Of a stretch of DNA of 64,000 nt, positions 11,327 to 60,600 are shown piece by piece. How positions within the stretch are numbered: the first letter of the stretch is position 1; each line of letters opens with the position of its first letter. The notes beneath the pieces are model-generated. The model was not told the DNA's origin. It was given only the letters and a program-made list of their open reading frames with translations, and searched no databases. The translations under genes were made by a program, and so were the position numbers. The DNA lies in NCBI GenBank assembly GCA_016182845.1, contig JACPFT010000001.1, positions 186,001 to 250,000 on the forward strand. Direction: 5' to 3'. The DNA comes from Gammaproteobacteria bacterium (GTDB lineage: Bacteria > Pseudomonadota > Gammaproteobacteria > Enterobacterales > Permianibacteraceae).

Positions 11327-13933
11327 ATGAAAGCTCCGGAAACGCCCCTGGTCAAATACCGCAAGGATTACCTGCCACCGGCCTATTTCATCGACAGCAT
11401 CGCCCTGCGCGTCGAGTTAGGCGCGAGCGGCACCGAAGTCCAGGCCGAGCTGGCCGTGCGCCGCAATCCGGCGAGCACCGCCCCGGCCGTGCTGGAGCTG
11501 GACGGCGAGCAGCTGGAGTTGCTGGACCTGGCCGTCGACGGGCGCCTACTTTCCGATGGCGAATACCGCCTGGGTGTAGAATCCTTGAGCATTCCCGGCG
11601 TGCCGGAGCGTTTCGTCCTGGCGACGCGCGTGCGCATCCACCCGGAGTGCAATACCGCCCTGTCGGGCCTCTACACCTCGGGGGGCAAGTTCTGCACCCA
11701 ATGCGAAGCCGAGGGTTTCCGTCGCATCACCTATTTCCCGGATCGTCCGGACATCATGGCCAAGTACCGTTGCACGATTGTGGCGGACAAGTTGGACTAT
11801 CCCTTCCTTTTATCCAATGGCAACCCGGTGGCTCGCGGCGAGCTGGATCAGGGCCGACACTACGTCACCTGGGACGATCCCTTTCCCAAGCCCTGCTATC
11901 TCTTCGCCCTGGTGGCCGGCGATCTGGACCTGCTGGAAGACGAGTTCATCACCCGCTCCGGCCGCCGCGTGGCCCTGCAAATCTATGTGGACAAGGGCCA
12001 GCTCGCCAAATGCCCCCATGCCATGGCCTCGCTGAAGAAGGCGATGGCCTGGGACGAGGCGCGCTTCGGCCTGGAGTATGACCTCGACATCTACATGATT
12101 GTCGCGGTCTCCGACTTCAACATGGGGGCCATGGAGAACAAGGGCCTCAATATCTTCAACACCAAGTACGTGCTGGCCGACGTCGATACCGCCACCGACG
12201 TGGATTTCGACGGCGTGGAGTCGGTGATCGGCCACGAATACTTTCACAACTGGACCGGCAACCGCGTCACCTGCCGTGATTGGTTCCAGTTGAGCCTGAA
12301 GGAGGGCCTGACCGTCTACCGCGATCAGGAATTCACCTCCGACGTGCAATCCCGGGCCGTGAAGCGCATCGACGACGTGAAGGTGATCCGCTCGGTTCAG
12401 TTCTCCGAGGATGCGGGGCCCATGGCCCATCCCATCCGCCCGGATGCCTATATCGAGATGAACAACTTTTATACCTCCACCGTCTACAACAAGGGCGCCG
12501 AGGTGATCCGCATGCTGGAGACGCTGATTGGCCGCGAGGCCTTCCGGCGTGGCATGGACCTGTATTTCTCCCGCCACGACGGCCAGGCGGTGACCTGCGA
12601 CGAGTTCGTGCAGGCCATGGCCGATGCCTCAGGCCGGGATCTGTCCCAGTTCCGGCGCTGGTATGCCCAGGCCGGCACACCCGAGCTCGTTGTCCGCGAT
12701 GCGTACGATGCCGCCAGCCGGGTTTACACGCTGCATATCGAGCAGCGCTGCCCCGATACCCCCGGCCAGAAGGACAAGCAGCCCTTCCTCGTGCCCATCA
12801 AGATGGGCCTGCTGGACGGGCAGGGCGCACCGCTGATCGCCGAGCGGGTGCTGGAGCTGACCGAAAACCGGCAGAGTTTCCGCTTCGAGGGCATGGCCTG
12901 CGCGCCGATCCCGGTCCTCTTGCGCGACTTCTCCGCGCCGGTGAAGCTGGACTATCCCTATAGCGACGAGCAGCTGGCACTTATTTATGCGAGGGACGGC
13001 AATGCCTTCGCGCGTTGGGATGCCGGTCAACGCTACGCCCTGCGCCTGGTCACCGCCATGATCCCGGCCATCCAGCGCGGCGAGACGCCGGCGGTGCCCG
13101 AGGCCTTTGTCGCCGCCATCGCCGGCGCCCTGCGCGGCGAGGACCAGGCCTTCGCGGCGCGGGCCATAGCCCTGCCCGACGAGAACATCATCGCCGAGAC
13201 CCTGGACGTGGTGGACGTGGACGCGGTGCGTGGGGCGCGGGAACGCCTGCGCCGCGTCGTCGCCGAGCGCCTGCGCGAGCCGCTGTTGGCGACCTATGGC
13301 GCCTGCGAAGACCAGGGCGAGTACCGCTTCGAGGCCGTTGACGTCGGCCGCCGCGCCCTGCGCAACGCCTGCCTGCATTACCTGATGGCCCTGCCCGAGC
13401 CGGAGGTCGAGGGGCTGTGCCGCCGACAGTACGAGGCCACGGACAATATGACCGAACGCTTCGCCGCCCTGCGCGAGCTGGTGCATCAGGGCTGCGCGAG
13501 CGGTGCCGAACTGCTGGCCGATTTCGAGCGGCGCTATGCCGGCGATGCCCTGGTCATGGACAAGTGGTTCGCCGTCCAGGCCAGTGCGCCCTTGCCGGGC
13601 ATTCTGGTCGAGGTCAAGCGCCTGATGACCCACCCGGCTTTCAGCCTGAACAACCCCAACAAGGTGCGCTCCTTGATAGGCGCCTTCGCCATGGCCAATC
13701 CGACCCAGTTCCATGCGGCCGACGGCAGCGGCTACCGCTTCCTCGCCGAGCAACTGGTACAACTCCAGGCCGTCAACCCGCAGATCGCGGCGCGCATGAC
13801 CTCCGCCTTCAATCGCTGGAAGAAGTATCTGCCGGCCCGCCAGGCGCAGATGCAGGGCGAGTTGAGGAAGTTGGTGGAAACGCCAGACCTGGCCAAGGAT
13901 GTGTTCGAGATAGCGAGCAAGGCGCTGGCGTAG
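11327..13933 (+). CDS. pepN: Aminopeptidase N (M1 family)
   Basis: 868 residues, the length of proteobacterial PepN. The substrate-binding GAMEN motif occurs in NMGAMENKGLNIFN, and the zinc motif is H303-E-Y-F-H307, with the third ligand Glu in KEGLTVYRDQEF. A C-terminal helical domain follows. The cytoplasmic enzyme removes N-terminal residues from peptides. ATG 11327 follows AAAGGAAT at suitable spacing. It is divergent from the dehydrogenase operon and no partner gene follows directly. Confidence 0.96.
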   Translation: MKAPETPLVKYRKDYLPPAYFIDSIALRVELGASGTEVQAELAVRRNPASTAPAVLELDGEQLELLDLAVDGRLLSDGEYRLGVESLSIPGVPERFVLATRVRIHPECNTALSGLYTSGGKFCTQCEAEGFRRITYFPDRPDIMAKYRCTIVADKLDYPFLLSNGNPVARGELDQGRHYVTWDDPFPKPCYLFALVAGDLDLLEDEFITRSGRRVALQIYVDKGQLAKCPHAMASLKKAMAWDEARFGLEYDLDIYMIVAVSDFNMGAMENKGLNIFNTKYVLADVDTATDVDFDGVESVIGHEYFHNWTGNRVTCRDWFQLSLKEGLTVYRDQEFTSDVQSRAVKRIDDVKVIRSVQFSEDAGPMAHPIRPDAYIEMNNFYTSTVYNKGAEVIRMLETLIGREAFRRGMDLYFSRHDGQAVTCDEFVQAMADASGRDLSQFRRWYAQAGTPELVVRDAYDAASRVYTLHIEQRCPDTPGQKDKQPFLVPIKMGLLDGQGAPLIAERVLELTENRQSFRFEGMACAPIPVLLRDFSAPVKLDYPYSDEQLALIYARDGNAFARWDAGQRYALRLVTAMIPAIQRGETPAVPEAFVAAIAGALRGEDQAFAARAIALPDENIIAETLDVVDVDAVRGARERLRRVVAERLREPLLATYGACEDQGEYRFEAVDVGRRALRNACLHYLMALPEPEVEGLCRRQYEATDNMTERFAALRELVHQGCASGAELLADFERRYAGDALVMDKWFAVQASAPLPGILVEVKRLMTHPAFSLNNPNKVRSLIGAFAMANPTQFHAADGSGYRFLAEQLVQLQAVNPQIAARMTSAFNRWKKYLPARQAQMQGELRKLVETPDLAKDVFEIASKALA

Positions 13934-14279: not shown

Positions 14280-14642
14280 TTAGGCCTTGGGCCCCTGGTA
14301 CACGCAGCCGCTGGTGCAAGTCTCCTTGACCACGACCTTGCTGAGCAGGGGCAGGACCGGTTTCATCTGGTCCCAGATCCACACGGCGATGACTTCGCTG
14401 GTGGGGTTCTCCAGGCCGGGGATATCGTTTAGATAATGATGGTCCAGACGGTCGTAGGTCGGTTTGAACGCCGCCTTGAGATCGGCATAGTCCATGATCC
14501 AGCCTGAGTGCTCGCCCAGTTCACCTCGCACATGCAGTTCGATGCGGAAGGAATGGCCGTGCAGCCGGCCGCATTTATGGCCGGATGGCACATTGGGCAG
14601 GCGATGCGCCGCCTCGAAGACAAACTCTTTATAGATTTCCAT
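14280..14642 (-). CDS. queD: 6-carboxy-5,6,7,8-tetrahydropterin synthase QueD
   Basis: 120 residues, the normal length. It converts dihydroneopterin triphosphate to 6-carboxytetrahydropterin in queuosine/7-deazaguanine synthesis. Zinc-binding histidines are visible in AAHRLPN and CGRLHGHSF, with the catalytic Cys in [10 protein letters not shown]. The signature LDHHYLND and the conserved TSE/E segment ([13 protein letters not shown]) are present. ATG 14642 is preferred over the upstream ATG at 14735 because it begins the family N-terminus [13 protein letters not shown]; its ribosome-binding site is weak. No other queuosine genes are adjacent. Confidence 0.94.
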
Positions 14643-15006
14643 AAGCCGATGATAGCAAAGCGCTCTTGAGCTGTCCTGAGTGAAGTTTGCCTGGGGCTGG
14701 CCAGCTTGGGATTTCCATCTATTCTTCTTTGCCATGAATGCTTTACGGAAATCCGCTGGATTTGGGCTGAAACCCTAGCCAACCGGGGGCCGGCTGTTGC
14801 GTCAAGTCATTGTTGCAATGCAATAAATTACCCATTACTGGCATGACCTCCACTGGTCCGATGAATTCGAGCTTTTTGCTTGCCCGGCGGAGAAAGTTGT
14901 TGCTAGTATGCGGTCAACCAACCGTAACAGAACAAAAACGGGGGGTGGTCGCAGCCGGCTTTCGCACTGCCGATTACCCAGGATTCATAACGGGGAAGGT
15001 AATAAA
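14643..15006. other. Divergent intergenic region between queD and the DUF1302 cluster
   Basis: 364 bp with no gene. It contains a plausible promoter for the rightward cluster at 14880-14909. Nothing else recognisable is seen. Confidence 0.5.
14880..14909 (+). promoter_or_regulatory. Candidate sigma-70 promoter of the DUF1302 cluster
   Basis: TTGCCC, an 18-bp spacer, and TAGTAT lie about 97 bp upstream of the DUF1302 ATG. The match is moderate and no transcript start is known. Confidence 0.35.
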
Positions 15007-16938
15007 ATGACAAAAACAGGGGTCAACCCCACGATTGGGGTCCATCAATTCGCTGCGTCCCGTAAACCCATGCTCTCCAAGGTCGCCTGTGCCGTCGTGT
15101 TCGGTATGGCCGCGTCTTCGGCTTACGCCGTCGACTTCCAATGGGGTGACAACTGGGAAGGCCGTTTCGATTCGACCTTCTCCGCCGGCGCCAGCTGGCG
15201 CGTGGAAGGCCAGGATCCCGATCTGATCGGTAAAGCCAATAACAATGGCACCGGCGTGATCCCTGGTTCGGGCGTGGTTCCGCGTGGCGCCTGGAGCAAT
15301 AATGGCGACGATGGCGATCTGAACTTCAAACGCGGCGAAACCTTCTCCAAGATTGCCAAGGGTTCCCACGAATTCAGCCTGAAATACAAGGACAGCTTTG
15401 GCGTGTATGCCAGCGGCCTGTATTTCTACGATTTCGAACTGATGGACGAGCATCGCGATTTCCGCGAGCTGGACCAGGATGTGCTCGATCAACAGGGTGC
15501 CGACGCCAAGTTCCTCAGCGCCTTCACCTATTTCAACTTCGACCTGTTCGAGCGCCCGACCAAGTTCTCCGTCGGCAAGCAAGTGATCAACTGGGGTGAG
15601 AATACCTTCATCGCCCACGGTATTTCCGAGGGCAACCAGCCCCTGGACGTCACCAAGCTGCGCACGCCGGGCGCCGAAGTCAAGGAAGCCTTCCTGCCTC
15701 TGGGCAGCGCCCTGTTCTCCATGGGCGTCACCGACACCATCGATGTCGAAGCTTATTACCAGTACCAGTGGGACTCCTTCCAGTCGGACGGTAGCGGTAC
15801 TTATTTCTCGACCACGGACTATGCCGGGCCGTTTACGCCTAGCACGGTTTTCGGCACACCTGGCGGCCGTTACGTGCATCTGCTGTTCGCGCAGCCAGTG
15901 GAAGGCGCTCCCGGTACCGTAGCTTACCGTACCGCCGACCGTGATGCCGATGATGGTGGCCAGTACGGTATCAAGGCCTCCTGGTATGCCGAGGAGCTGA
16001 ACGAGACCGAATTCGGCTTCTACTACATCAACTATCACAACCGCCGCCCGGTGATTTCCGCCTATGCCCATGACGGCGTTGTGGGCACGAAGGGCTTTTT
16101 CGAATACCCCGAGGACATCCAACTCTACGGCCTGTCCTTCAACACAACGATTCAGGCTACCGGTACCTCGGTGGGCGGCGAAATCAGCTACCGCAAGGAT
16201 GAGCCTTTACAGATCGACGACGTGGAGCTGCTGTTCGCCACCCTGGAACCGATTGGTGCCATCCCCAGCGGCACCAGTCAGATTCCGGGCGGCACGCTGC
16301 CTGGCCATGAGATCTCCGGTTACCGCCTGTTCGACACGATCCAAGCCCAGTCCACCTTCACCCAGCTGCTGGGCCCGACCTTCGGCGCCGACGAGTTCAC
16401 CCTGCTGGCCGAGCTGGGTATGAACTACATCCAGGACATGCCGGATCAGGATGAGCTGCGTCTTGAGGCCTCGGGTACTCACCGCAGTGGGAATTCGATG
16501 CGTGCCGGTAATGGCTACGCCTTTCTGGCCGGCCCCGGCCAGTGTCGGCAATTCCTGCGCAATCCCAACGGTACGACGGTGCTTGGCCCGAACAACCTTC
16601 CCCTGGCCTTCCAGTGCGAAGGGACGGAAACCAACCAGTTCGCCACTCAGTTCTCCTGGGGCTACCGCGTGCTCGCCAAGCTGGACTACAACAGCCTGTT
16701 CTGGGGCATCAACGTCAGCCCGCGCATGATTTTCCAGCATGACGTGAACGGTAGTACGCCGACTCCGATTTCCAACTTCATCGAAGACCGCAAGGCCTTG
16801 GGTGTGGGCGCCTCCTTCGATTACCAGAACCGGTGGAATATGGACGTGAGCTATAACCGCTTCTTTGGCGGTCAGACCGGCGCCGATGGTCTTTCGGACC
16901 GCGATTTTGTGTCCTTGACCGTCAAGTACTCCATTTAA
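15007..16938 (+). CDS. DUF1302 family outer-membrane protein
   Basis: 643 residues from ATG 15007 (GGGGAAGGTAAT upstream). An N-terminal signal peptide ends near AASSAYAVDF after a somewhat long leader. The family opening FQWGDNWEGRFDSTFSAG follows. The rest alternates amphipathic beta strands with turns, and the chain ends in an aromatic/hydrophobic strand (RDFVSLTVKYSI), typical of an outer-membrane barrel. DUF1302 proteins recur with DUF1329, YCF48-like and MMPL genes, often near hydrophobic-substrate metabolism. A role in moving lipidic compounds across the outer membrane is an inference. First gene of a four-gene cluster. Confidence 0.88.
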   Translation: MTKTGVNPTIGVHQFAASRKPMLSKVACAVVFGMAASSAYAVDFQWGDNWEGRFDSTFSAGASWRVEGQDPDLIGKANNNGTGVIPGSGVVPRGAWSNNGDDGDLNFKRGETFSKIAKGSHEFSLKYKDSFGVYASGLYFYDFELMDEHRDFRELDQDVLDQQGADAKFLSAFTYFNFDLFERPTKFSVGKQVINWGENTFIAHGISEGNQPLDVTKLRTPGAEVKEAFLPLGSALFSMGVTDTIDVEAYYQYQWDSFQSDGSGTYFSTTDYAGPFTPSTVFGTPGGRYVHLLFAQPVEGAPGTVAYRTADRDADDGGQYGIKASWYAEELNETEFGFYYINYHNRRPVISAYAHDGVVGTKGFFEYPEDIQLYGLSFNTTIQATGTSVGGEISYRKDEPLQIDDVELLFATLEPIGAIPSGTSQIPGGTLPGHEISGYRLFDTIQAQSTFTQLLGPTFGADEFTLLAELGMNYIQDMPDQDELRLEASGTHRSGNSMRAGNGYAFLAGPGQCRQFLRNPNGTTVLGPNNLPLAFQCEGTETNQFATQFSWGYRVLAKLDYNSLFWGINVSPRMIFQHDVNGSTPTPISNFIEDRKALGVGASFDYQNRWNMDVSYNRFFGGQTGADGLSDRDFVSLTVKYSI

Positions 16939-16957
16939 GGGCAGAGGAAATTAGACA

Positions 16958-18325
16958 ATGAGCCTCTTCAATAAAAAAACAACGCTCGTCGCTGCCATTG
17001 CGCTGGTGTTCGCCGGTGTGGTTTCGGCCAAGGTCGCCCCGGATCAGGCGGCCCGCCTGGGTCAGGACCTGACTCCGGTCGGTGGTGAGAAAGCTGGCAA
17101 TGCCGATGGTTCCATCCCGGTCTGGGAAGGCGGCATAACCTCGACGCCGGCCGGTTACAAGTCCGGCGATCATCATCCGGATCCGTTTCCGGGCGATGCC
17201 ATCAAGTTCAGCATCAGCGCCCAGAATGCCGAACAGTACAAGGACAAGTTGACCCCCGGCCAGATGGCCCTGTTCAAGGCCTATCCGACCTACAAGATGA
17301 ACGTCTACCAGACGCGCCGCACGGCCTCCTTTCCGCAGCGCATCTACGAGGCCACGGCGGCCAATGCCCCGCGCGCCGAGCTGACGGGCGACGGTAACGG
17401 CATGAAGGGCGCTGCCATCGGCATCCCCTTCCCGATCCCGGGCAATGGCCAGGAAGTGATGTGGAACCACATCATGCGTTACCACGGCACCCATGTGGCC
17501 CGCTCTGGCGGCCAGGCCGCGCCGACCCGCGAAGGCGATTTCACCCTGGTGAAGTTCCGCGACCAGCTGGACATTCCCTACGCGAAGGAAGCCACCACGC
17601 CGGAAACACTGGATCAGACCAACCGCCTGTTCTTCTTCAAGCAGTGGGTGATTTCCCCGGCCCGTCTGGCGGGCACCGCCCTGCTGGTGCACGAGCCCAT
17701 GGACCAGATCAAGGAGCCGCGCCAGGCCTGGACCTATAACACCGGCCAACAGCGCGTGCGCCGTGCCCCCAACGTCGCCTATGACGCTCCCGGCACCGCC
17801 GCCGACGGCCTGCGCACCACCGACGACTTCGACATGTTCAACGGGGCCCTGGACCGTTACGACTGGAAGCTGGTGGGCAAGCAGGAACTCTACGTCGCCT
17901 ACAACAACTACAAGCTGCACTCCGACTCCGTGAAGTATGCCGACATCATCAAGCCCGGCCATATCAACCCGGATCTGGTGCGCAACGAGCTGCACCGCGT
18001 CTGGGTGGTCGAGGCCACGCTGAAGTCCGGCGCCCGTCACCAGTACAAGAAGCGCGTGTTCTTCGTCGACGAGGACAGCTGGCAGATCCTGGTCTCGGAC
18101 ATTTATGACGACCGCGATCAGCTGTGGCGCGTGGCGGTGGCCTATGCCATCAACTACTACGAAGTGCCGACCCTGTGGACTACCCTGGAGGTCTTCCACG
18201 ATCTGCAGTCCGGCCGTTACCTGGCCTTGGGCCTGGACAACGAGGATGAAATGTACGATTTCACCACGGAATTCGGTGCCGACGACTTCAATCCGGCGTC
18301 CCTGCGCCGCGAGGGCACTCGCTAA
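16958..18325 (+). CDS. DUF1329 family periplasmic/outer-membrane-associated protein
   Basis: 455 residues beginning with a signal peptide (MSLFNKKTTLVAAIALVFAG, cleavage after VSA). The family motif LGQDLTPVGGEKAGNADGSI-like opening is present, followed by IPVWEGGIT. A repeated-strand body with TYNTGQQRVRRAPNVAYD and SWQILVSDIYDDRDQLWR is typical of DUF1329, which has a LolB-like beta fold. The gene lies 19 bp after the DUF1302 stop, preceded by GGGCAGAGGAA. It presumably works with the DUF1302 barrel as a lipid-handling partner. The biochemical function is unproven. Confidence 0.88.
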   Translation: MSLFNKKTTLVAAIALVFAGVVSAKVAPDQAARLGQDLTPVGGEKAGNADGSIPVWEGGITSTPAGYKSGDHHPDPFPGDAIKFSISAQNAEQYKDKLTPGQMALFKAYPTYKMNVYQTRRTASFPQRIYEATAANAPRAELTGDGNGMKGAAIGIPFPIPGNGQEVMWNHIMRYHGTHVARSGGQAAPTREGDFTLVKFRDQLDIPYAKEATTPETLDQTNRLFFFKQWVISPARLAGTALLVHEPMDQIKEPRQAWTYNTGQQRVRRAPNVAYDAPGTAADGLRTTDDFDMFNGALDRYDWKLVGKQELYVAYNNYKLHSDSVKYADIIKPGHINPDLVRNELHRVWVVEATLKSGARHQYKKRVFFVDEDSWQILVSDIYDDRDQLWRVAVAYAINYYEVPTLWTTLEVFHDLQSGRYLALGLDNEDEMYDFTTEFGADDFNPASLRREGTR

Positions 18326-18348
18326 GCGATTCCGGCGCAAGCCAGAAA

Positions 18349-18378
18349 AGACGGCCGATTTATTCGGCCGTTCTTTTT
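18349..18378 (+). terminator. Terminator between DUF1329 and the YCF48-like gene
   Basis: ACGGCCGA-TTTAT-TCGGCCGT is followed by TCTTTTTG. It separates the first two cluster genes from the last two and may reduce read-through. Confidence 0.8.
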
Positions 18379-18489
18379 GATGCGCCGGCGATGCTTCGGT
18401 GGCTCGGAGCTCGGCAGGGCTCTCTGCCTCGATTCACGGTCTATAGTTTGCATTCCTGCCGGCTACCGGCATTTTTGGAGCCATTTTCG

Positions 18490-19512
18490 ATGCGCAACAA
18501 GCACTTCCGCGCATTCTCCACCCCGAGTTCGTTGTTGCTGGGCGTGGCGCTGTCTTTCCTGACGGCCACCGGACCGGTCGCCGCTACCGAGGCGGCAGGC
18601 AAGGAGCCGGCAGTCATTGCCCGCAAGGCGCAATCCTCCGTGCTGTTGGACATCGTGGAAGCTGGCGGACGCTGGATTGCGGTCGGCGAGCGTGGGCACA
18701 TCCTGTATTCCGAGGACCAAGGCGCGTCCTGGGCGCAGGCCGAAGTGCCGGTGGCCTCGAACCTGACGGCGGTGTATTTCGCCAATGCCGAACAGGGCTG
18801 GGCCGTGGGGCACGATGCCACCATCCTGGCGACCGCCGATGGCGGGCGCAGCTGGAGCCTGCAATTCCGCCAGCCGGAACTGGAGAAGCCCTTTCTCGAT
18901 GTCTGGTTCCGCAATCCCCTGCGGGGTATCGCCATCGGCGCCTATGGCATGATGATGCGCACCGAGGACGGCGGGAAGACCTGGCAGACCCAGGACACCG
19001 CATCCTTGGGCGACGATATCATCGCCGAACCTCATCTCAATGCTCTGCGCCAGTTGGGCGATGGTTCCCTCTTGCTGGCTGGCGAGGCCGGTCTGGTCGC
19101 TCGCTCCAATGACGAGGGGCGCAGTTGGACGCGTATGTCTTTCCCTTACGAGGGCTCTCTGTTCGGTATCGGCGAGACCACGGGCAAGGCCTTGCTGGTC
19201 GCCGGTCTCCGCGGCCATGTGTTCCGCTCGGTGGACAACGGCGCGAGTTGGCAGGAAGTGAGCACCGACGTCGTGGGCGCCTTGAACTCGGTGCTCAATA
19301 CCGGTTCCGGCGTCTATGTCCTGGGCAATGACGGCATCGTGCTGCGCAGCCAGGACGACGGGCGCAATTTCGTCAAGGTTCAGCGCGGCGACCGCAAGGC
19401 CGTCGCCGCGGGCCTGGCTGACGAGAACGGCCTCTTGCTGGTGGGCGAGGTCGGCGTCAAGACCACCGATGCCGACGGGCGCGATCTACAAAAGCACGAT
19501 CTACAGAAGTAA
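18490..19512 (+). CDS. YCF48-like beta-propeller protein
   Basis: 340 residues. The signal peptide ends near TGPVAATEA. The rest is a series of about seven BNR/YCF48 repeats, recognised by G-x-G strands and S/T-D-D/G-G-x-S/T-W turns (VGHDATILATADGGRSW, AYGMMMRTEDGGKTW, VLRSQDDGRNF). In photosynthetic organisms YCF48 is an assembly factor; in this non-photosynthetic context it is probably a periplasmic scaffold for the neighbouring transporter. ATG 18490 follows TTTTGGAG and begins the signal peptide, so upstream in-frame ATGs are rejected. The last codons contain a small duplication (DLQKHDLQK). Confidence 0.87.
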   Translation: MRNKHFRAFSTPSSLLLGVALSFLTATGPVAATEAAGKEPAVIARKAQSSVLLDIVEAGGRWIAVGERGHILYSEDQGASWAQAEVPVASNLTAVYFANAEQGWAVGHDATILATADGGRSWSLQFRQPELEKPFLDVWFRNPLRGIAIGAYGMMMRTEDGGKTWQTQDTASLGDDIIAEPHLNALRQLGDGSLLLAGEAGLVARSNDEGRSWTRMSFPYEGSLFGIGETTGKALLVAGLRGHVFRSVDNGASWQEVSTDVVGALNSVLNTGSGVYVLGNDGIVLRSQDDGRNFVKVQRGDRKAVAAGLADENGLLLVGEVGVKTTDADGRDLQKHDLQK

Positions 19513-19530
19513 GAGGGCGGGAGCCGCTTG

Positions 19531-22119
19531 ATGGAAGTTCATAGCTTGCAACAGAGCGCCCTAAACCGGCGCATCGTCGATTTTGTCTTCGGTCACCGCC
19601 GCCTGGTCCTGGGTGTTTTCGCGGCACTGACCCTGTTCATGCTCTGGTCGGTGAGCATGCTGCGTGTCGATGCGGGATTCGAGAAGAATGTCCCGCTCAA
19701 ACACCCGTACATGCAGACCTACATGAAGTACCAGCAGCAATTCGGCGGCGGCAACCGCGTGCTGGTGGCCATCGAGGACACGCGCGGCGACATTTTCAAT
19801 CCGGAGTTCTTTGCCGTCTTGCAGGACGTCACCAACCGGGTCTTCGTGATCCCGGGCATCGACCGTCCCCTGGTGCGTTCCCTGTTCACGCCCAATACCC
19901 GCTTCGTCGAAGCCGTGGAAGACGGCCTGGCCGGCGGGCCGGTGATACCCAATGACTTCAAGCCCGATCAGCCGGGCTTGGAGCGGGTGCGCGAGAACGT
20001 GCTCAAGGCCGGCGTGGTCGGGCGCCTGGTGGCCAATGATTTCTCGGCGGCCATGGTCCAAGCCGAGCTGATGGCCATCAACCCGGAGACCAAGCAGCCC
20101 ATCAATTACATCGAGGTGGCTGGCCAGCTGGAGCAGGTCCGCGCCGAAATCGAGGCCAAGCACCCCACGATCAAGCTGCACATCATCGGCTTCGCCAAGG
20201 TCATGGGCGATGTCAGCCAGGGCGCCAAGGGCGTGGGCGTGTTCTTCGCCATCGCCATCCTGATCACGGCGGTTCTGGTCTATCTGTACTCTCATTCCAT
20301 GCGACTGACCCTGCTGCCCATCGCCTGTTCCATCATCGGCGTGATCTGGCAGCTAGGCCTGTTGCCGCTCCTCGGCTTCGGCATCGATCCCATGTCGATC
20401 CTCGTGCCCTTCCTGATCTTCGCCATCGGCGTATCCCATGGCGTGCAGATGATCAACGCCATGGGGCGCGGCGTGGCTTCTGGCCTCAGCTCTATGGAGT
20501 CCGCCAAACAGGCATGCTCGCGGCTTCTGTTTCCGGGCGGCATCGCCCTGCTCTGCGACGTGGTGGGCTTCATTACCCTGATCATCATCGAGATCAAGGT
20601 CATCCAGGATCTGGCCATCACCGCCAGCATCGGCGTCGGCGTCATCATTTTCACGAACCTGATCCTGCTGCCGGTCCTGCTGTCCTACGTGAACGTGAAA
20701 GAATCCTTCCGTAGCAAGGTGGAAGCGGGCGCCGCCAAGCAGGACAAGGTCTGGCGCACGCTCACCGCGTTCACTACGCCCAAGCTCGCTACCCTGACCA
20801 TCGTCATCGCCCTGGCCATCGGCGGCCTGTCCTATTTGCAGAGCCTGAAGCTCAAGATCGGCGATCTGCAGCGTGGCACGGCGGCCCTGCACGAGGGCTC
20901 GGTCTATAACCGCGATACGGATTTCATCACCGGGCATTTCAGCATCAGTGTCGATCTGCTCTCGGTGATCGTGGAGACCATCCCCTCGGGCTGTACCTAT
21001 CACGACGTGATGAGCGATATCGATCGTTTCGCCTGGCATATGGCCAACGTGTCGGGCGTGCAGTCCACCATCAGCCTGCCTCAGGTGGCCAAGATCCTGA
21101 ATGCCGGCTTCAACGAGGGCAATCTGAAGTGGCGCGTGCTGCCGCGAAATCAGTCCACCCTGGTGCAGTCCATCCAGTACGTGGAGACCTCCACCGGCCT
21201 GCTCAATTCCGAATGCAATGTCATGCCGCTCTTGATCTTCACCGAGGATCACAAGGCGGAGACCCTGGAGCGGGTGGTGGCCGAGGTCAAGGCCTACGAG
21301 GCCAAGGCCCAGGCCGAGAAACAGGCACGGGAAAGCCAGGCCTACGAGCTGCTCAAGGCCAAGCTTGGAAAGACCGAGGACAAGTCCGGACAGGCGGCGC
21401 TCACCGCCCTGGAGGCCTTCCGCGCCAAGCCGGATCCGGTTCAGCTGGGTAAGCTCAACAACCAGCTGGAAGACTGGCGTAAGCGCCTGGAGGATCAGGG
21501 CGCCGCCGCCGAGCAGCTGGCTGCCTTGAGCGATTACCAGTCGGCCTTCCGCCTCAACAACACCCGTTTCCTGCTGGCCACCGCGCCGGTGGGCGTCATG
21601 GCCGCCACCAACGAGGCGGTCAAGGCAGCACAGCGCCCCATGCTGATGTGGGTGTACGGCGCCGTGACCCTGCTGTGCTTCATCAGCTTCCGCTCGGTGA
21701 AGGCCACGGTCTGCGTGATCATTCCCCTGATGCTGGTCACCCTGATGGCCGAGGCCCTGATGACCTTCCTCAAGATCGGCGTCACCGTGTCCACGCTGCC
21801 GGTGATTGCCCTGGGCGTCGGCATCGGCGTCGACTACGGCATCTACATCTTCATGCGCATGAAAGACTTCCTGGCCGAAGGGCAGGGCATAGGCGATGCC
21901 TATCTCAACACCCTGCGCGCCACCGGCAATGCCGTGTTGTTCACCGGCCTAACCCTGGCCATCGGCGTCTCGACCTGGGTGTTCTCGGCCCTCAAGTTCC
22001 AGGTGGACATGGGCATCCTGCTCACCTTCATGTTCCTGGTGAACATGATCGGCGCGGTGATCCTGATCCCGGCGCTGGCCGCCTGGCTATACCGGGGGAA
22101 AAAGACCGCAACTACCTAA
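19531..22119 (+). CDS. MMPL/RND-family transporter
   Basis: 862 residues. TM1 is near 22-42, followed by a large periplasmic loop. A sterol-sensing-like bundle of about five helices covers 235-395 (VGVFFAIAILITAVLVYLYS and IGVSHGVQMINAMGRG). A second periplasmic domain with an Ala/Glu/Lys-rich coiled segment lies at about 575-660, and a second TM bundle at about 705-855 (IALGVGIGVDYGIYIFMRMK). The conserved G-x-G-x-x-x-D-Y/H motif of MMPL proton-driven transporters is present. ATG 19531 is chosen over the adjacent TTG. It ends the DUF1302 cluster and likely exports or relocates a hydrophobic substrate. Confidence 0.88.
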   Translation: MEVHSLQQSALNRRIVDFVFGHRRLVLGVFAALTLFMLWSVSMLRVDAGFEKNVPLKHPYMQTYMKYQQQFGGGNRVLVAIEDTRGDIFNPEFFAVLQDVTNRVFVIPGIDRPLVRSLFTPNTRFVEAVEDGLAGGPVIPNDFKPDQPGLERVRENVLKAGVVGRLVANDFSAAMVQAELMAINPETKQPINYIEVAGQLEQVRAEIEAKHPTIKLHIIGFAKVMGDVSQGAKGVGVFFAIAILITAVLVYLYSHSMRLTLLPIACSIIGVIWQLGLLPLLGFGIDPMSILVPFLIFAIGVSHGVQMINAMGRGVASGLSSMESAKQACSRLLFPGGIALLCDVVGFITLIIIEIKVIQDLAITASIGVGVIIFTNLILLPVLLSYVNVKESFRSKVEAGAAKQDKVWRTLTAFTTPKLATLTIVIALAIGGLSYLQSLKLKIGDLQRGTAALHEGSVYNRDTDFITGHFSISVDLLSVIVETIPSGCTYHDVMSDIDRFAWHMANVSGVQSTISLPQVAKILNAGFNEGNLKWRVLPRNQSTLVQSIQYVETSTGLLNSECNVMPLLIFTEDHKAETLERVVAEVKAYEAKAQAEKQARESQAYELLKAKLGKTEDKSGQAALTALEAFRAKPDPVQLGKLNNQLEDWRKRLEDQGAAAEQLAALSDYQSAFRLNNTRFLLATAPVGVMAATNEAVKAAQRPMLMWVYGAVTLLCFISFRSVKATVCVIIPLMLVTLMAEALMTFLKIGVTVSTLPVIALGVGIGVDYGIYIFMRMKDFLAEGQGIGDAYLNTLRATGNAVLFTGLTLAIGVSTWVFSALKFQVDMGILLTFMFLVNMIGAVILIPALAAWLYRGKKTATT

Positions 22120-22137
22120 GCTGCGGTTCACAAGTAC

Positions 22138-22166
22138 AAAAGGCGCCAACCCGGCGCCTTTTGTTT
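22138..22166 (+). terminator. Terminator of the DUF1302-MMPL cluster
   Basis: AAAAGGCGCC-AACCC-GGCGCCTTTT followed by GTTT, 18 bp after the MMPL stop. Confidence 0.88.
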
Positions 22167-22475
22167 ATCTCAAAAAGCTAAAACACTCGTTTTAAACCAT
22201 CGTTAAAAGCTTGCCAGCCTTGGAATTTTTTTCTCCCGGGCGTGCATAGGTATTCACTATGGCACGTGCCTTCACGCCTGCAATGGCCTAGAATTAGCGC
22301 ACTTCGCGCCGCGCCCGACTCGACCCGAGTCATTTTGGCCGCGACGCGCGGCCCGCCGCGCATTGGGGAGCGGTTCAGTTTGAACCGCCTAAGATGCGCC
22401 GCCAAGATTCGACCATCACGCTCGTACGCTAATAAGTACCTGTAATTCCACGGTATGCCAGAAGGGGAAACCTGC
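22167..22475. other. Upstream region of the NAD-glutamate dehydrogenase gene
   Basis: 309 bp without a gene. The first 70 bp are AT-rich; a TAGAAT hexamer near 22290 could be a -10 element, but no good -35 is seen. It presumably carries the GDH promoter and a leader. Confidence 0.4.
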
Positions 22476-25400
22476 ATGTCGACGAAGTCTTCCGATCAAC
22501 ACGCCCATCTGATCGATAAAGTTGTCGCCCTCATCAAGGACAAGTTGCCGGCCAAGCAATCGGCCCTGGTCGCGGACTTCGCCCGCCGCATCTTCAACTC
22601 CATCGCCTATGAAGATCTGGCGGCTCGCGCCACCAACGATCTCTACGGTTCGGCCTTGAGCCTGTGGAACTTCATCCAGGGTCGCAAGCCCGGCGAGACC
22701 AAGCTGCGCGTCATCAATCCGGAGTTCGCCCAGCACGGCTGGCAGTCCCCCCATACCGTCATCGAGTTGATCCACGACGACATGCCCTTCCTGGTGGACT
22801 CCATCAATATGGAGATCAACCGCCTGGGGCTTTCGACCCATCTGTTCATTCATGTGCCCACCAAGATCGTGCGCGATGCCAAGGGCATGGTCACGTCTAT
22901 CCACGGTTCCCGCGAGGACGTGAAGGGCGCCGTCTTCGAAACCCCCATGTTCCTGGAAATCGACCGCCAGACCGACGCAGCCACCATCGCGGCCATCGAG
23001 AAGGGCCTGATGACTGTGCTGGCCGATGTCGAGGCGGCCGTGGGCGATTGGAAGCCCATGTGCAAACGCTTGGAGGAGATCATCGCCGAAGTGAAGTCGG
23101 TGAAGTCCAAGCTGCCCATGGACAAGGAAAACATCGACGAGTCCATCGCCTTCCTGGAGTGGATGCAGGCCAATAACTTTACCTTCCTGGGTTACCGTAC
23201 CTATGAGTCGGTCAAGCACGCCAAGGACTGGGAACTGGCCGCCGTGCCGGGCTCCAGCCTGGGGCTAATGCGCCACACCGAGGGTACCGAGAAGAAGCGC
23301 CTGCTCTCCGGCATGACCAAGGCCGCCCAGGGCCTGGCCCTGAACAATACCCGCCTCCTGGTCCTGTCCAAGACCAATGCCGTGTCCACGGTGCACCGCC
23401 CGGCGCGTATCGACTACATCGGCGTCAAGCGCTTCAACGACAAGGGCGAAGTGGCTGGCGAATACCGCTTCCTGGGCCTGTTCACCTCGGCGGCCTACAA
23501 CACCAGCGCCCGCCAGATCCCCCTGCTGCGCCACAAGGTGCAGACCATCCTCGACCGCTCGGGCCTCGCGCCCAATGGCCATGACAGCAAGGCCCTGCTC
23601 AATATCCTGGAGACCTTCCCGCGCGACGAGCTGATCCAGATCGGCATCAACCAGCTCGTGGAAATGTCCATGGGCATCCTGCATATCGCCGAGCGTCCGC
23701 TGACTCGGCTGTTCGTGCGCCCCGACGCTTACGGCCGCTTCTTCTCCTGCCTGGTGTACACGCCGCGCGATCGCTACACGACGCGCATGCGCCTGAAGAT
23801 GCAGGCCATCCTGAAGAAGGCCTTCGGCTCCGAGCATGAAGTCGATTTCACCACCCAATTCAGCGAGTCCGTCTTGACCCGCATCCACTTCGTGGTGCGC
23901 GTCAAGAACACCGACGCGGTGCATTACGATGCACGCCAGATCGAGCAGGAGCTGATCGACGCAACCCGCTCCTGGGAAGACAATCTATCCGATGCCATGG
24001 TCGTCGCCTTCGGCGAAGGCGAGGGCAAGAAGCTCTACAACCAGTATGTCGAGGCCTTCCCGCCCGGCTACAAGGACGAGATGTCCGTGCAGAGCGCGGC
24101 CCTGGACGTCAAACACATGGAGTCCCTGTCCGAGACCAATCGCCTAGGCATGATGCTGTATCGTTCCCAGGAAGATCTGGACACCCAGGTCCGCCTCAAG
24201 CTCTACAACCTGAACGAACCCCTGGCCCTGTCCGATGTCCTGCCCATGCTGGAAAATATGGGCCTCAAGGTCATCAACGAGCATCCCTACGAAGTCGAGT
24301 TCAAGAACGGCAAGACCATCTGGGTCCTCGACTTCTCCATGGCCGCCGTCAATGGCCAGCCCCTGGATCTGGATGCCGTCAAGGACATCTTCCAGGAGTG
24401 TTTCGCCCGCGTCTGGGCCAATGACGCCGACAACGACGGCTTCAACCGCCTGACCCTGCTCGCCAAGTTGAACTGGCGCGAAGTCTCCATCCTGCGCGCC
24501 CTGGCCAAGTACATGCGCCAGCTGGGCTTCACCTACAGCCAGCAGTACATCGAGGAAACCCTGGGCGCCTACCCGCATATCGCCCAGATGCTGGTCCAAC
24601 TCTTCAACCTGAAGTTCAATCCCAAGGATCTGCGCGATCTGGCCAAGCTGAACATCACCAGCGACGCCATCTACGAGGCCCTCGAGAAGGTCAAGTCCCT
24701 GGATCAGGACCGCATCCTGCGCCGCTATCTGGACATCATGGCCGCCACCGTGCGTACCAACTTCTTCCAGAAAGATGGCAAGGGCAAGGACAAACCGTAC
24801 ATCTCCTTCAAAATCCGCCCGCGCGAGATCCCGGAAGTACCGCAGCCGACCCCGCTGTTCGAGATCTGGGTGTTCAGCCCGCGCGTCGAGGGCGTGCATC
24901 TGCGCTTCGGCATGGTTGCCCGAGGCGGCCTGCGCTGGTCGGATCGCCGCGAGGACTTCCGCACCGAAGTCCTGGGCCTGGTCAAGGCGCAGCAGGTCAA
25001 GAACACGGTGATCGTGCCCATGGGCGCCAAGGGCGGCTTCGTCTGCAAGCAGATGCCGACGGGCGCCGATCGCAAGCGCATCCAGGAAGAGGGCATCGCC
25101 TGCTACCAGACCTTCATCAAGGGCCTGCTGGACATCACCGACAACATCGTGGCCGGCAAGATCCAGCCGCCGCGCGACGTCTACCGCCACGACGAGGACG
25201 ATCCCTATCTGGTGGTCGCCGCCGACAAGGGCACGGCGACCTTCTCCGACATCGCCAATGCCATTTCCCTGGAATACAACCACTGGCTGGGCGACGCCTT
25301 CGCCTCCGGCGGCTCCAACGGCTATGATCACAAGGGCATGGGTATCACCGCCAAGGGCGGCTGGGAGTCGGTCAAGCGCCACTTCCGCGAGATGGGCATA

Positions 25401-27524
25401 GACTGCCAAACGACCGATTTTACCTGCGTGGGCATCGGCGACATGGCCGGCGACGTGTTCGGCAACGGCATGCTGCTGTCCAAGCACACCCGTCTCATCG
25501 CCGCCTTCAACCACCTACACATCTTCATCGATCCGAACCCGAATGCGGCCAAGAGCTTTGAAGAGCGCCAGCGCCTGTTCAACCTGCCGGGTTCGTCCTG
25601 GACCGATTACAACACCAAGCTGATCTCCAAGGGCGGTGGCATATTCCTGCGCTCCGAGAAGGAAATCAAACTCAGCCCGGAAATCCGCGCCCTGATCGGC
25701 ACGGACAAGGCGGCCATGGCCCCCAATGAGCTGATGAAGACCCTGCTCAAGGCCGACTACGACTTGTTGTGGAACGGCGGCATCGGCACCTACGTCAAGT
25801 CCAGCAAGGAAACCCATGCCGACGTCGGCGATCGCGCCAACGATGCCCTGCGCGTCAACGGCAACGAGCTGCGCTGCAAGGTGATCGGCGAGGGCGGCAA
25901 CCTGGGCTGCACCCAGCTGGGCCGCGTCGAGTTCGCCCTCAAGGGCGGCCGTTTGAACACCGACTTCATCGACAACGTGGGCGGCGTCGACTGCTCCGAC
26001 AACGAAGTCAACATCAAGATCCTGCTCAACGAGCTGGTGGCCGGCGGCGACATGACCATGAAGCAGCGCAACGAGCTGCTCGCCCAGATGACCGATGCCG
26101 TGGGCGACATCGTCATCGAGGACTGCTACCAGCAGAGCCAGTCCATCTCCATTACCGAGACGCGCGCCCCGGCCATGGTCAAGGAGCACATGCGCTTCAT
26201 CCATTGGCTGGAGAAGTTGGGCATCCTGGATCGCGGCCTGGAATTCCTGCCCTCCGACGAGGAGATGCTGGAGCGCCGTGCACAAGGGCGTGGCCTGACC
26301 CGTCCGGAGCTGTCCATCCTGTCCGCCTACGGCAAGATGGTGCTCAAGCAGGCCCTTCTGGATCCGGCCATCGGCGGCAACCCGTATTTCAGCCAGCTGC
26401 TCGTCAACAACTTCCCGGTGCAGCTGCAGAAGCGCTACACCGACGCCATGCAGCGTCACCGCCTGCGCGGCGAGATCATCGCCAACCAGTTGGCCAACGA
26501 GATCGTCAACCTGATGGGCTGCAATTTCGTGCATCGCCTCATCGACGAGACCGGCCATAACGGCGCCGAAATCGCCATCTGCTATACCGTAGCCAAGGAA
26601 ATCTTTGGCGTTCCGGCCCTGTTCGACGCCATCGAAGCCTTGGACAACAAGGTCCCGGCCGGCCTTCAGCTGGAAGTGATGTACCAGGCCCAGCGCCTGA
26701 TGCGCCGTTCCGTGCGCTGGTTCCTGCGCCATCGCGACCGCAGCCTGTCCATCGAGCAGAGCGTGGCGATCTACCGGGGCGGCGTCGCCGAGCTGGAAGC
26801 CAAGATCGCCTCCACCCTGGAGAAGGGCGAGGCCGCCGAGCTGGAGGCCTATGCCGCCGAGCTGGTCAATAAGGGCCTGCCCAAGGCCGTGGCCAGCAAG
26901 GTCGCCTATCTGTCGACCCTGTTCTCGGGTCTGGACATCGTGGAAGTGGCCCGCCAATCCGGCGAGTCCGTGCCCCTGGTGGCCGAGGTGTATTACAAGC
27001 TCGGTTACAAGCTGGAGCTGCACTGGTTCCTGGAGCAGATCAACGCCCAGCCGGTGGACAACCACTGGCAGGCCTTCGCCCGCGCCGCCTTCCGCGAGGA
27101 ACTGGATTGGCAGCAGCGCGCCTTGGCTGCGGCGGTCATGCGCATGACCGAGGGCAAGGCCGAACAGCGCATCCAGTCCTGGACCGAGGGCAATGCCGCG
27201 ATCATCCATCGTTGGGCGCAGATGGCGGCGGATTTCCGCTCCACCGCCGTGCACGAGTTCGCCAAGTTCTCCGTGGCTTTGCGCGAACTGCTGATCCTGG
27301 TGCAGAGCTGCAGCGCCGTCGCGGAGAGCCTGGCCAAGCCGGCGGCCAAGGCCGAGACGGCCAAGCTTGAAATCAAGGCGGCGCCCAAGGCCACCACGCC
27401 CAAGGTTGAACTCGTCAAGGCCAAGACGGCCAAGCTGGCGGCGGTCAAGAAGCCGGCCAAGGCGGAAGTCAAGCCGGCCAAGACCGAGCTCAAGAAGGCC
27501 GCCAAGCCGAAGGCGAAAGCCTAA
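22476..27524 (+). CDS. gdhB: NAD-specific glutamate dehydrogenase, large (180-kDa class)
   Basis: 1682 residues. It oxidises glutamate to 2-oxoglutarate and ammonia with NAD+. Large N-terminal regulatory ACT-like regions precede the dehydrogenase core at about residues 800-1300: MVARGGLRWSDRREDFRTEV, then VIVPMGAKGGFVCK with the catalytic Lys, and DIANAISLEYNHWLGDAFASG. The NAD-binding Rossmann part and a helical C-terminal domain follow. ATG 22476 has AAGGGGAAA upstream; an ATG seven codons earlier lacks one. The last 60-70 residues (27331-27521) are a Lys/Ala/Pro-rich tail (KPAAKAE, VKKPAKAEVKPAK) not part of the usual enzyme. Convergent with a glutamate/dicarboxylate symporter. Confidence 0.95.
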   Translation: MSTKSSDQHAHLIDKVVALIKDKLPAKQSALVADFARRIFNSIAYEDLAARATNDLYGSALSLWNFIQGRKPGETKLRVINPEFAQHGWQSPHTVIELIHDDMPFLVDSINMEINRLGLSTHLFIHVPTKIVRDAKGMVTSIHGSREDVKGAVFETPMFLEIDRQTDAATIAAIEKGLMTVLADVEAAVGDWKPMCKRLEEIIAEVKSVKSKLPMDKENIDESIAFLEWMQANNFTFLGYRTYESVKHAKDWELAAVPGSSLGLMRHTEGTEKKRLLSGMTKAAQGLALNNTRLLVLSKTNAVSTVHRPARIDYIGVKRFNDKGEVAGEYRFLGLFTSAAYNTSARQIPLLRHKVQTILDRSGLAPNGHDSKALLNILETFPRDELIQIGINQLVEMSMGILHIAERPLTRLFVRPDAYGRFFSCLVYTPRDRYTTRMRLKMQAILKKAFGSEHEVDFTTQFSESVLTRIHFVVRVKNTDAVHYDARQIEQELIDATRSWEDNLSDAMVVAFGEGEGKKLYNQYVEAFPPGYKDEMSVQSAALDVKHMESLSETNRLGMMLYRSQEDLDTQVRLKLYNLNEPLALSDVLPMLENMGLKVINEHPYEVEFKNGKTIWVLDFSMAAVNGQPLDLDAVKDIFQECFARVWANDADNDGFNRLTLLAKLNWREVSILRALAKYMRQLGFTYSQQYIEETLGAYPHIAQMLVQLFNLKFNPKDLRDLAKLNITSDAIYEALEKVKSLDQDRILRRYLDIMAATVRTNFFQKDGKGKDKPYISFKIRPREIPEVPQPTPLFEIWVFSPRVEGVHLRFGMVARGGLRWSDRREDFRTEVLGLVKAQQVKNTVIVPMGAKGGFVCKQMPTGADRKRIQEEGIACYQTFIKGLLDITDNIVAGKIQPPRDVYRHDEDDPYLVVAADKGTATFSDIANAISLEYNHWLGDAFASGGSNGYDHKGMGITAKGGWESVKRHFREMGIDCQTTDFTCVGIGDMAGDVFGNGMLLSKHTRLIAAFNHLHIFIDPNPNAAKSFEERQRLFNLPGSSWTDYNTKLISKGGGIFLRSEKEIKLSPEIRALIGTDKAAMAPNELMKTLLKADYDLLWNGGIGTYVKSSKETHADVGDRANDALRVNGNELRCKVIGEGGNLGCTQLGRVEFALKGGRLNTDFIDNVGGVDCSDNEVNIKILLNELVAGGDMTMKQRNELLAQMTDAVGDIVIEDCYQQSQSISITETRAPAMVKEHMRFIHWLEKLGILDRGLEFLPSDEEMLERRAQGRGLTRPELSILSAYGKMVLKQALLDPAIGGNPYFSQLLVNNFPVQLQKRYTDAMQRHRLRGEIIANQLANEIVNLMGCNFVHRLIDETGHNGAEIAICYTVAKEIFGVPALFDAIEALDNKVPAGLQLEVMYQAQRLMRRSVRWFLRHRDRSLSIEQSVAIYRGGVAELEAKIASTLEKGEAAELEAYAAELVNKGLPKAVASKVAYLSTLFSGLDIVEVARQSGESVPLVAEVYYKLGYKLELHWFLEQINAQPVDNHWQAFARAAFREELDWQQRALAAAVMRMTEGKAEQRIQSWTEGNAAIIHRWAQMAADFRSTAVHEFAKFSVALRELLILVQSCSAVAESLAKPAAKAETAKLEIKAAPKATTPKVELVKAKTAKLAAVKKPAKAEVKPAKTELKKAAKPKAKA

Positions 27525-36816: not shown

Positions 36817-37068
36817 TGGGCGATGCTCTTGGACTTAAGGCGTCTATGCTTACGAAACTCGAAAACTGCGGGGGCACCCGATCAGGGCGCTATTTATACC
36901 GCCAAGCGCGGTCGGCTTGTAGGGGCTAAGTGCACTTCCTGGGAAAAAACTGACTGAAAAACAAGGCTGATCACGGCTTAAAACAAGTGTTTGAAAGTTT
37001 TTCGGCAAGCATTACAATCGAGCAATCAAGGTCAGACCAGTTCGGCTGACAGCGCAAGGAGATCCTGT

Positions 37069-38376: not shown

Positions 38377-38386
38377 GCCTCGCTTG

Positions 38387-38469
38387 AAAACCGTTCGCCC
38401 TTCGACAGGCTCAGGACGAACGGTTTTTCAAGGAACATCCCGTTCGTGCTGAGCCCGTCGAAGCACGAA
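38387..38469. repeat. Two hairpins from a dispersed repeat between fadI and fadJ
   Basis: AAAACCGTTCG (38387-38397) pairs with CGAACGGTTTT (38417-38427), which is followed by one more T. The loop contains CCTTCGACAGGCTCAGGA. TTCGTGCT (38443-38450) pairs with AGCACGAA (38462-38469). Related motifs occur at about 122-138 and 40999-41018. The first hairpin resembles a terminator, and the second ends 12 bases before the fadJ ribosome-binding site. Confidence 0.75.
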
Positions 38470-38491
38470 ACCGAGGTTTCAGGAGAAACCC

Positions 38492-41246: not shown

Positions 41247-45409
<4,163 letters not shown>

Positions 45410-45410
<1 letters not shown>

Positions 45411-56011: not shown

Positions 56012-56021
56012 GGCGAACTCC

Positions 56022-59225: not shown

Positions 59226-59312
59226 GGCGGGTCCCTCGCGGGTACTGCGATTCTTATGGACGCCGCAGGGCTCGGCGTCGGTGTTTTTATTGGGGGAGAC
59301 GCTTGGCGACGG

Positions 59313-59331
59313 GCGCCCCCGGCGGGGGCGC
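59313..59331. other. Intercistronic hairpin between adaptor and first RND gene
   Basis: GCGCCCCC-GGC-GGGGGCGC, a perfect 8-bp GC stem with no T-run. It may tune mRNA stability or stoichiometry between adaptor and pumps. Confidence 0.5.
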
Positions 59332-59339
59332 GGTATCGC

Positions 59340-60386: not shown

Positions 60387-60600
60387 GATGGACTCCGGAA
60401 AACGAAACCATGACAACTGGGGTTGATGCTGTTAAGCATAATCAATGCCAATCAATTTGTTGTTATGTAAAGCATTGAAAATGTAACTAAAAATAAATCG
60501 CTTCTAAGCCGATAACCAGGCGGTAGTGGGCATCGGACACAAGGCTTAGTAAAATTCGCCATCTATCGCCTAGCAGCCAATGCGCCCCGGAGCCTTATCC
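60387..60600. other. AT-rich divergent promoter region between the pump operon and fRMsr
   Basis: 214 bp, markedly AT-rich between 60430 and 60510. CAATGC and GCATTG lie 23 bp apart around 60445-60480. No clear hexamers could be assigned. Confidence 0.4.

Follow-up and report, generated by a model that had tools for sequence, protein, structure and literature searches.

We propose that the four genes ameABCD encode a trans-envelope carrier for degradable hydrophobic compounds, the likeliest cargo here being a fatty acid or fatty-acid ester that is loaded inwards by an RND-type pump; we give this reading a probability of about 0.4. Inward movement appears more likely than outward, with export as a strong rival, and the cargo in this organism would probably be fatty acids or their esters. 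The carrier model is built on what was observed, namely the gene content, the folds predicted for AmeA and AmeB, the terminator patterns, the joint occurrence of the genes and, in other genomes, ligases beside them; import is suggested by the genomic company of the genes, the need of Pseudomonas putida for its set on Tween 20 and the absence of FadL from the family studied here. Little is understood of how water-insoluble food gets across the periplasm. RND pumps mostly move their cargo outwards; if our proposal is true, an inward RND pump working with a LolA-fold shuttle breaks this usual exporter picture, and many degraders of oil, terpenes and aromatics, as well as FadL-less bacteria like the present family, gain a named entry route. 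Genome comparison, which suggests that the system often deals with food resembling fatty acids, makes the debated cargo and direction directly testable.

The genes were found in a stretch of 64,000 nucleotides (the window, G000:C24:186001-250000) from a 3.82-Mb gammaproteobacterial genome. Open reading frames and Pfam matches place all of them on the + strand at 15007-22119, in the span and single direction described in the first-pass annotation. The names ameA, ameB, ameC and ameD are applied to the DUF1302, DUF1329, YCF48-like and MMPL genes, respectively. The ameA-like gene (15007..16938, +) encodes a DUF1302 outer-membrane beta-barrel of 643 aa (PF06980, E 2.8e-170) and the ameB-like gene (16958..18325, +) a DUF1329 periplasmic LolA-fold carrier of 455 aa (PF07044, E 1.7e-158; LolA_like, E 2.5e-11). 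At the ameAB/ameCD boundary lies an intrinsic-terminator-like hairpin (18350..18372, +), followed by CTTTTTG. The ameC-like gene (18490..19512, +) encodes a YCF48-type propeller with a signal-like N-terminus (PF14870, PSII_BNR, E 4.3e-28), and the ameD-like gene (19528..22119, +) an MMPL/RND transporter of 863 aa counted from TTG 19528 (PF03176, E 2e-20). Another terminator-like hairpin, located by hairpin scoring and provided with a T tail, stands 3´ of ameD (~22136..22164, +). Gene starts and signal-like N-termini were judged by eye from the sequence: ameC most plausibly starts at ATG 18490 rather than at the first ATG of its frame (18391), and ATG 19531, directly beside TTG 19528, is an alternative start of ameD. 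Upstream lie pepN (11327..13933, +; TIGR02414, 1250 bits) and queD (14280-14735, -), downstream gdhB for an NAD-glutamate dehydrogenase (22455..27524, +; profile match); pepN and gdhB are neighbours outside the proposed machine. The window also holds a Rhs-repeat protein gene of 1387 codons (41247-45410) and, on the - strand at 52922-60416, two adjoining AcrB-type RND genes with a gene for a HlyD-type fusion protein, which we take to form a heteromeric pump of the MdtBC kind.

A terminator at 18349-18378 had been suggested in the first-pass annotation to split the cluster into two expression units. The hairpin is indeed present at 18350-18372 and, together with the one past ameD, delimits ameAB and ameCD as the likely units; when the 100 bases 3´ of ameB were shuffled 40 times with dinucleotides preserved, one shuffle scored equally well. 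When nine loci were scanned (the window and eight others, the ameC end being approximated in L045 and L047), T-tailed hairpins with a score of -14 or lower followed ameB in eight and ameD in seven of them, and ameA and ameC in none. The letters of these hairpins vary, so that the feature is kept while its sequence changes. A wider sample, referred to below as the named loci, comprised the best 80 of at least 593 confirmed loci (at least 595 stretches matched) and, consisting of top-ranked matches, over-represents near relatives. There, a hairpin was detected 3´ of ameB in 32 of 34 loci flanked by pepN and gdhB and in 23 of 45 others, 3´ of ameD in 24/34 and 11/39, 3´ of ameC in 4/34 and 4/41, and 3´ of ameA in 0/34 and 2/42. 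As a sequence feature, the ameB terminator would fit production of AmeA and AmeB in excess over AmeC and AmeD. In a benzene culture, the counterparts of AmeA and AmeB rank 18 and 4 in abundance, against 36 and 45 for those of AmeC and AmeD (PMC13101534, available in part), which is the order that such a terminator would predict.

The AlphaFold model of AmeA (57 sequences, pLDDT 85.2), in which about 18 long strands were counted, is consistent with the outer-membrane barrel anticipated earlier. Occ/OprD-type barrels come first among its VIA-align matches, headed by OccK11 (Z 22.1, rmsd 3.4, 302 aligned), and the export barrel AlgE follows closely (Z 20.8); since both kinds are near, the fold cannot separate uptake from export. 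AmeA was rejected as a FadL relative, for it lacks PF03349 (Toluene_X) and has DUF1302 as its sole Pfam match; FadL is missing from the 50 VIA-align matches listed, though the two may be alike in fold. For AmeB, the predicted model (56 sequences, pLDDT 90.9) found LolA3 (9tp6, E 1e-16) as its best Foldseek match and the DUF1329 protein 4z48 at E 2.7e-15, further matches being LolA-superfamily proteins and then LolB and LolA, which supports the earlier notion of an exported protein with a LolB-like fold. Sequence searches of AmeA and AmeB against solved structures gave no match.

AmeC matched Ycf48 structures at E ~1e-24 in a profile search, and its PSII_BNR match and signal-like N-terminus point to a periplasmic propeller, as had been proposed. 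A role in photosystem assembly was rejected on its score of 89.7 bits against the Ycf48 equivalog cut-off of 326. AmeD, correctly recognized as an MMPL transporter, has HAE3 (TIGR00921) as its best model (E 3.7e-50; 170.7 bits, under the cut-off of 351.9), and the AmeD lineage has been placed on a separate branch within HAE3 (PMC6394551). Profile searches also matched it to MmpL and HAE-type RND proteins, to 6r4l, a chain of an NPC1-related lipid-moving RND protein, and weakly to the HpnN model (70.7 bits, under the cut-off of 751.85). As judged from alignments, its two halves show a conserved asymmetry. The first carries an SHxxQ signature (20434..20448, +), where His replaces an acidic residue, in 9/9 aligned proteins and in all 74 AmeD frames of the named loci (best 80 of at least 593); the second carries GVDY (21826..21837, +) in 9/9, with the pattern DYxIY in 73 of the same 74 frames. 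By the RND plan, we take these sites to lie in TM4 and TM10, respectively. The window protein further contains an Ala/Glu/Lys/Gln-rich insert of about 80 codons (21325..21567, +) that is missing from eight aligned orthologs and, to judge by its composition, is probably helical. Spacing at the insert site was 31 in all 38 of 116 AmeD proteins in which the pattern could be measured; the window protein, outside those 38, has about 110 by alignment reading.

How might these parts work together? Cargo would enter through the large AmeA barrel and be carried over the periplasm by AmeB, acting as a soluble LolA-fold shuttle and proposed to be in excess because of the terminator 3´ of its gene. AmeD, with the AmeC propeller presumably docked on it, would receive the cargo from AmeB and load it into the inner membrane by means of the proton gradient, a coupling that membership in the RND family suggests. 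At the inner membrane, an acyl-CoA ligase could trap the cargo. Docking of the AmeC-AmeD type has been predicted for the P. putida pair (PMC10866462, in part), and by analogy the MMPL and LolA-like domains joined in a single chain in Thalassolituus support direct hand-over from carrier to pump (PMC6304351, in part).

No acyl-CoA ligase was found among the scanned window proteins, and the evidence for such a partner comes from other genomes. Neighbours were clustered in 55 loci (46 named loci without gdhB and nine others, L136 being excluded). Besides Ame genes, the most frequent groups were acyl-CoA synthetase, thiolase, Lipase_bact_N lipase and acyl-CoA dehydrogenase; a FadB-like group ranked lower, level with unrelated groups. 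Fixed fatty-acid queries gave at least one match in 25 of the 55 loci; among 60 control segments, sampled at constant intervals along 13 genomes that carry the Ame set, 4 had a match (p ~1e-6). Because the families had been picked on the same 55 loci, the comparison was repeated on fresh loci; there, 7 of 39 matched against the same 4 of 60 controls (one-sided p 0.08). In none of these counts are the loci independent of each other. The wide association with fatty-acid genes is therefore weaker than first apparent. The stronger signal is the narrow one, the adjacency of ligases: 10 of 140 loci have a ligase gene no more than 500 bp away from the cassette, and any such gene occurs in 1 of 60 controls. 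Three of the ten (L213, L226, L240) belong to the fresh set, the other seven (L079, L088, L089, L093, L118, L125 and L133, the last with the AB half only) do not. Several ligase families (FadD, FadD11-like, PRK07008-like, steroid-24-oyl-like) are represented, on either side of the cassette, which argues for repeated association.

In one fresh locus (L212:5557-9567), AmeD is fused in frame to an acyl-CoA ligase, giving a protein of 1336 aa with MMPL followed by AMP-binding domains. It is a single case, with none in 19 relatives searched, and an ATG at the ligase start makes a lost stop codon possible. The ten adjacent loci and the fusion all fall among the 92 of 140 loci without pepN or gdhB neighbours. 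On plasmids, where the regions of 14 out of 39 records were viewed, a ligase adjoins the cassette in three (upstream in Azoarcus and Caballeronia grimmiae, downstream in Caballeronia sp. Lep1P3) and a thiolase in one; most remaining cassettes in these regions stand among ring-cleavage, hydrolase or oxidoreductase genes. The Diaphorobacter region has DUF1329 without other ame genes, and in the Acidovorax region the MMPL gene is missing from the annotation table.

According to the published reading, which we consider quite possible though somewhat less likely than import, AmeD would pick up toxic hydrocarbons that partition into membranes, either from the inner membrane or from the periplasm, and expel them via AmeB/AmeC and AmeA. 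With ameABCD deleted, Castellaniella defragrans shows poor growth on monoterpene hydrocarbons, no longer tolerates high limonene even with acetate and accumulates slightly more Nile Red in the presence of CCCP, which was interpreted as export; real-time Nile Red efflux, however, was equal in mutant and wild type (PMC6394551). Coping with toxic aromatics was likewise proposed by the authors who described the set in aromatic regulons (PMC6449761, in part), and the matches of AmeD to MmpL and HAE-type RND proteins, like the nearness of AlgE to AmeA (Z 20.8 vs 22.1 for OccK11), suit an exporter. Yet the cluster holds neither a HlyD-type fusion protein nor a TolC-type channel. Uptake of a carbon source would account more simply, if not exclusively, for the ligases beside the cassette, for the one fused to AmeD and for the requirement on Tween 20.

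Import raises the question of FadL. In the window's genome and both searched members of its family, no PF03349 (FadL) match was found at E <= 0.001; the window itself carries beta-oxidation genes for a thiolase and a 3-hydroxyacyl-CoA dehydrogenase (36991-40663). Strong FadL matches (E <= 1e-40, tallied by hand) were present in 5 of 12 Ame-bearing relatives, which carry FadL and Ame together, against 11 of 14 others (one-sided p 0.06). The corresponding values were 3/16 against 45/98 in a sample of the class (one-sided p 0.035, two-sided 0.056) and 8/27 against 56/112 in the pooled set (one-sided p 0.044, two-sided 0.084); at E <= 1e-20, the class sample gave 6/16 against 53/98 (p 0.17). Some genomes without a match are not itemised in the class-sample results for AmeB, AmeD and FadL. 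The genome bearing the AmeD-ligase fusion has strong FadL. Strong FadL tends to be rarer in Ame-bearing genomes, a mild contrast that is suggestive only. It seems to us possible but less likely than not that ameABCD forms a second, energy-coupled import route of Gram-negative bacteria, independent of FadL, for long-chain fatty acids and hydrophobic acids akin to them, which in the window's family stands in for FadL. AmeB, as soluble lipid carrier, would then load the RND protein AmeD for delivery to the inner membrane and activation by an acyl-CoA ligase, a bacterial parallel to the hand-over from NPC2 to NPC1.

The setting of the window copy is shared widely. The pepN-ameABCD-gdhB arrangement occurs in 34 of the 80 named loci (pepN in 36, gdhB in 34; best 80 of at least 593), in genera including Colwellia, Rheinheimera, Pseudoalteromonas, Shewanella and Alteromonas, and pepN-ABCD in two Pseudomonas. 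Among relatives, gdhB stands 3´ of the set in L044, L045, L047, L049, L050, L051 and L053, and pepN is also found beside further loci of the phylum sample. Fatty-acid genes of the test set (including acyl-CoA ligase, lipase and fad genes) were found within 10 kb of none of the 34 pepN-gdhB loci; hence, the window copy belongs to the core locus rather than to a catabolic island, and the ligase argument is drawn from other lineages.

This conserved chromosomal site, kept in many genera without test-set catabolic neighbours, is what one would expect if the core copy shuttled an endogenous lipid between the membranes, much as HpnN moves hopanoids, and the catabolic copies derived from it. AmeD matches HpnN weakly, and other sets of barrel, LolA-like and MMPL genes in the same genome adjoin genes that look lipid-making. 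We nevertheless regard lipid maintenance as unlikely: the set is missing from 14 of 26 relatives, so it is no general necessity, and no lipid-synthesis gene was found in the cluster by Pfam analysis of the four proteins. One of the other sets (L041:7582-12942, G000:C18) consists of a divergent barrel (DUF1302, E 5.9e-12), a LolA_like protein and an MMPL pump, comes after ketosynthase-like, class-III aminotransferase and reductase-like genes and is perhaps an exporter of a made lipid. In another (L042:7528-15097, G000:C4), genes for a LolA_like protein, a SPOR-domain barrel and an MMPL protein are followed by those for a FeeM/autoinducer-synthase-like acyltransferase and a fatty-acid desaturase.

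Recurrence of the four genes in Proteobacteria had been noted from the start. They do recur as a set, though not in Proteobacteria alone, as records titled Opitutaceae, Thermoanaerobaculales and Nitrospirota also carry it. Among the 26 relatives, a full-type DUF1329 protein (E <= 1e-69) and AmeD are present in the same 12 genomes and both missing from the other 14, so that the neighbourhood comparison called for in the first-pass annotation found co-occurrence in 12/12 against 0/14. The class sample of 114 genomes contains AmeB in 16, AmeD in 17, both in 16, AmeD only in 1 and neither in 97 (Fisher p ~1e-18, kinship ignored). A chance array was rejected on the strength of this co-occurrence. 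The order A-B-C-D on a single strand is found in 71 of the 80 named loci (best 80 of at least 593); six of the remaining nine (L083, L089, L108, L119, L127, L130) are cut by contig ends, and L095, L120 and L133 are incomplete without such a cut. In genome G003, AB (near 2.72 Mb) and CD (near 2.22 Mb) share a contig, both pairs persisting though about 0.5 Mb apart, and on a plasmid of Azospirillum sp. B510 (L276:9375-15936) seven genes, several of them of catabolic type and with VOC, Rieske and FAH-family genes among them, stand between ameAB and ameCD. It is very improbable that four neighbours without joint function are held together by slow rearrangement, as the terminator between the halves might hint, given the near-perfect co-occurrence with split genomes included, the prevalence of the full order in those top-ranked loci and the shared fitness phenotypes in P. 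putida with the halves apart (PMC10866462, in part). The genome also has an orphan DUF1329 gene (L043:8764-10137; G000:C18:28034), 54% identical to AmeB, between alpha/beta-hydrolase-like and PEP-CTERM-like genes (named by eye), and a second DUF1329 gene is present in G009 too (L054).

Systems of this kind are already known (PMC6394551, PMC6449761, PMC10866462, PMC13101534). Since gene content and order match AmeABCD and the set is found both within regulons for aromatics and on catabolic plasmids, the earlier statement that the cargo is not established was right in part only: AmeABCD has been tied to monoterpene tolerance and the P. putida set to Tween 20. Compared by description, AmeABCD of C. 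defragrans, linked to monoterpene tolerance, has these four families, arranged identically. Its RND protein is of HAE3 type, the best though sub-cut-off model for the window AmeD, and like the window set it includes one outer-membrane protein and two proteins of the periplasm; it sits in a monoterpene island, whereas the window copy is chromosomal, between pepN/queD and gdhB, and has the terminator between ameB and ameC and the AmeD insert (PMC6394551). In P. putida, PP_0765/PP_0766 and PP_2018/PP_2019 are needed on Tween 20 (PMC10866462, in part, citing doi 10.1128/AEM.01665-20 for the data). That set comprises DUF1302, DUF1329, a periplasmic protein and a transporter termed a multidrug efflux transporter and, by its locus numbers, keeps AB and CD at two loci instead of one (same source). 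Betaproteobacterial aromatic regulons bring together DUF1302, PF07044, COG4447 and COG1033, as here, under the control of AphS/AphR/AphT; the window copy is without such neighbours (PMC6449761, in part). The 'nanopod' cluster of the benzene degrader ORM2a, a member of Desulfobacterota, likewise combines a porin-like protein, DUF1329, YCF48 and MMPL, with extra genes interspersed (PMC13101534, in part), and related DUF1302 and DUF1329 proteins are reported from Delftia nanopods (PMC3110197, in part). TOL_3187/TOL_3188 of Thalassolituus, induced by C28 alkane, have MMPL and LolA-like domains and a porin-like neighbour; MMPL and LolA-like domains share one protein there, unlike the separate AmeB and AmeD of the window, and YCF48 goes unmentioned in the passages concerned (PMC6304351).

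Of more distant systems, Lol lipoprotein sorting resembles the present one in the LolA/LolB fold of the AmeB model, but its partner is the LolCDE ABC transporter, where the ame cluster has an MMPL/RND protein. FadL and FadD together take up fatty acids and trap them by conversion to CoA esters. The proposed outcome is alike, although AmeA belongs to DUF1302 and not to PF03349, and the Ame system would draw its energy from an RND pump. A classical tripartite pump of the HAE1 AcrAB-TolC type was rejected: such efflux systems have a HlyD-type fusion protein and a TolC-type outer-membrane factor, and Pfam found neither in the four proteins. HpnN and NPC1-type RND lipid transporters are distant sequence relatives of AmeD; HpnN, unlike the Ame set, acts without partner proteins in the periplasm or outer membrane (PMC6394551). 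In the searched part of the literature on these sets, which leaves most subscription journals outside, we found neither the ameB terminator nor the pepN-gdhB locus nor the ligase fusion mentioned. To the known systems, the present comparison adds the co-occurrence of AmeB and AmeD, the pepN-gdhB locus, the conserved ameB terminator, the adjacency and fusion of acyl-CoA ligases and the absence of FadL from the window's genome and the two searched members of its family.
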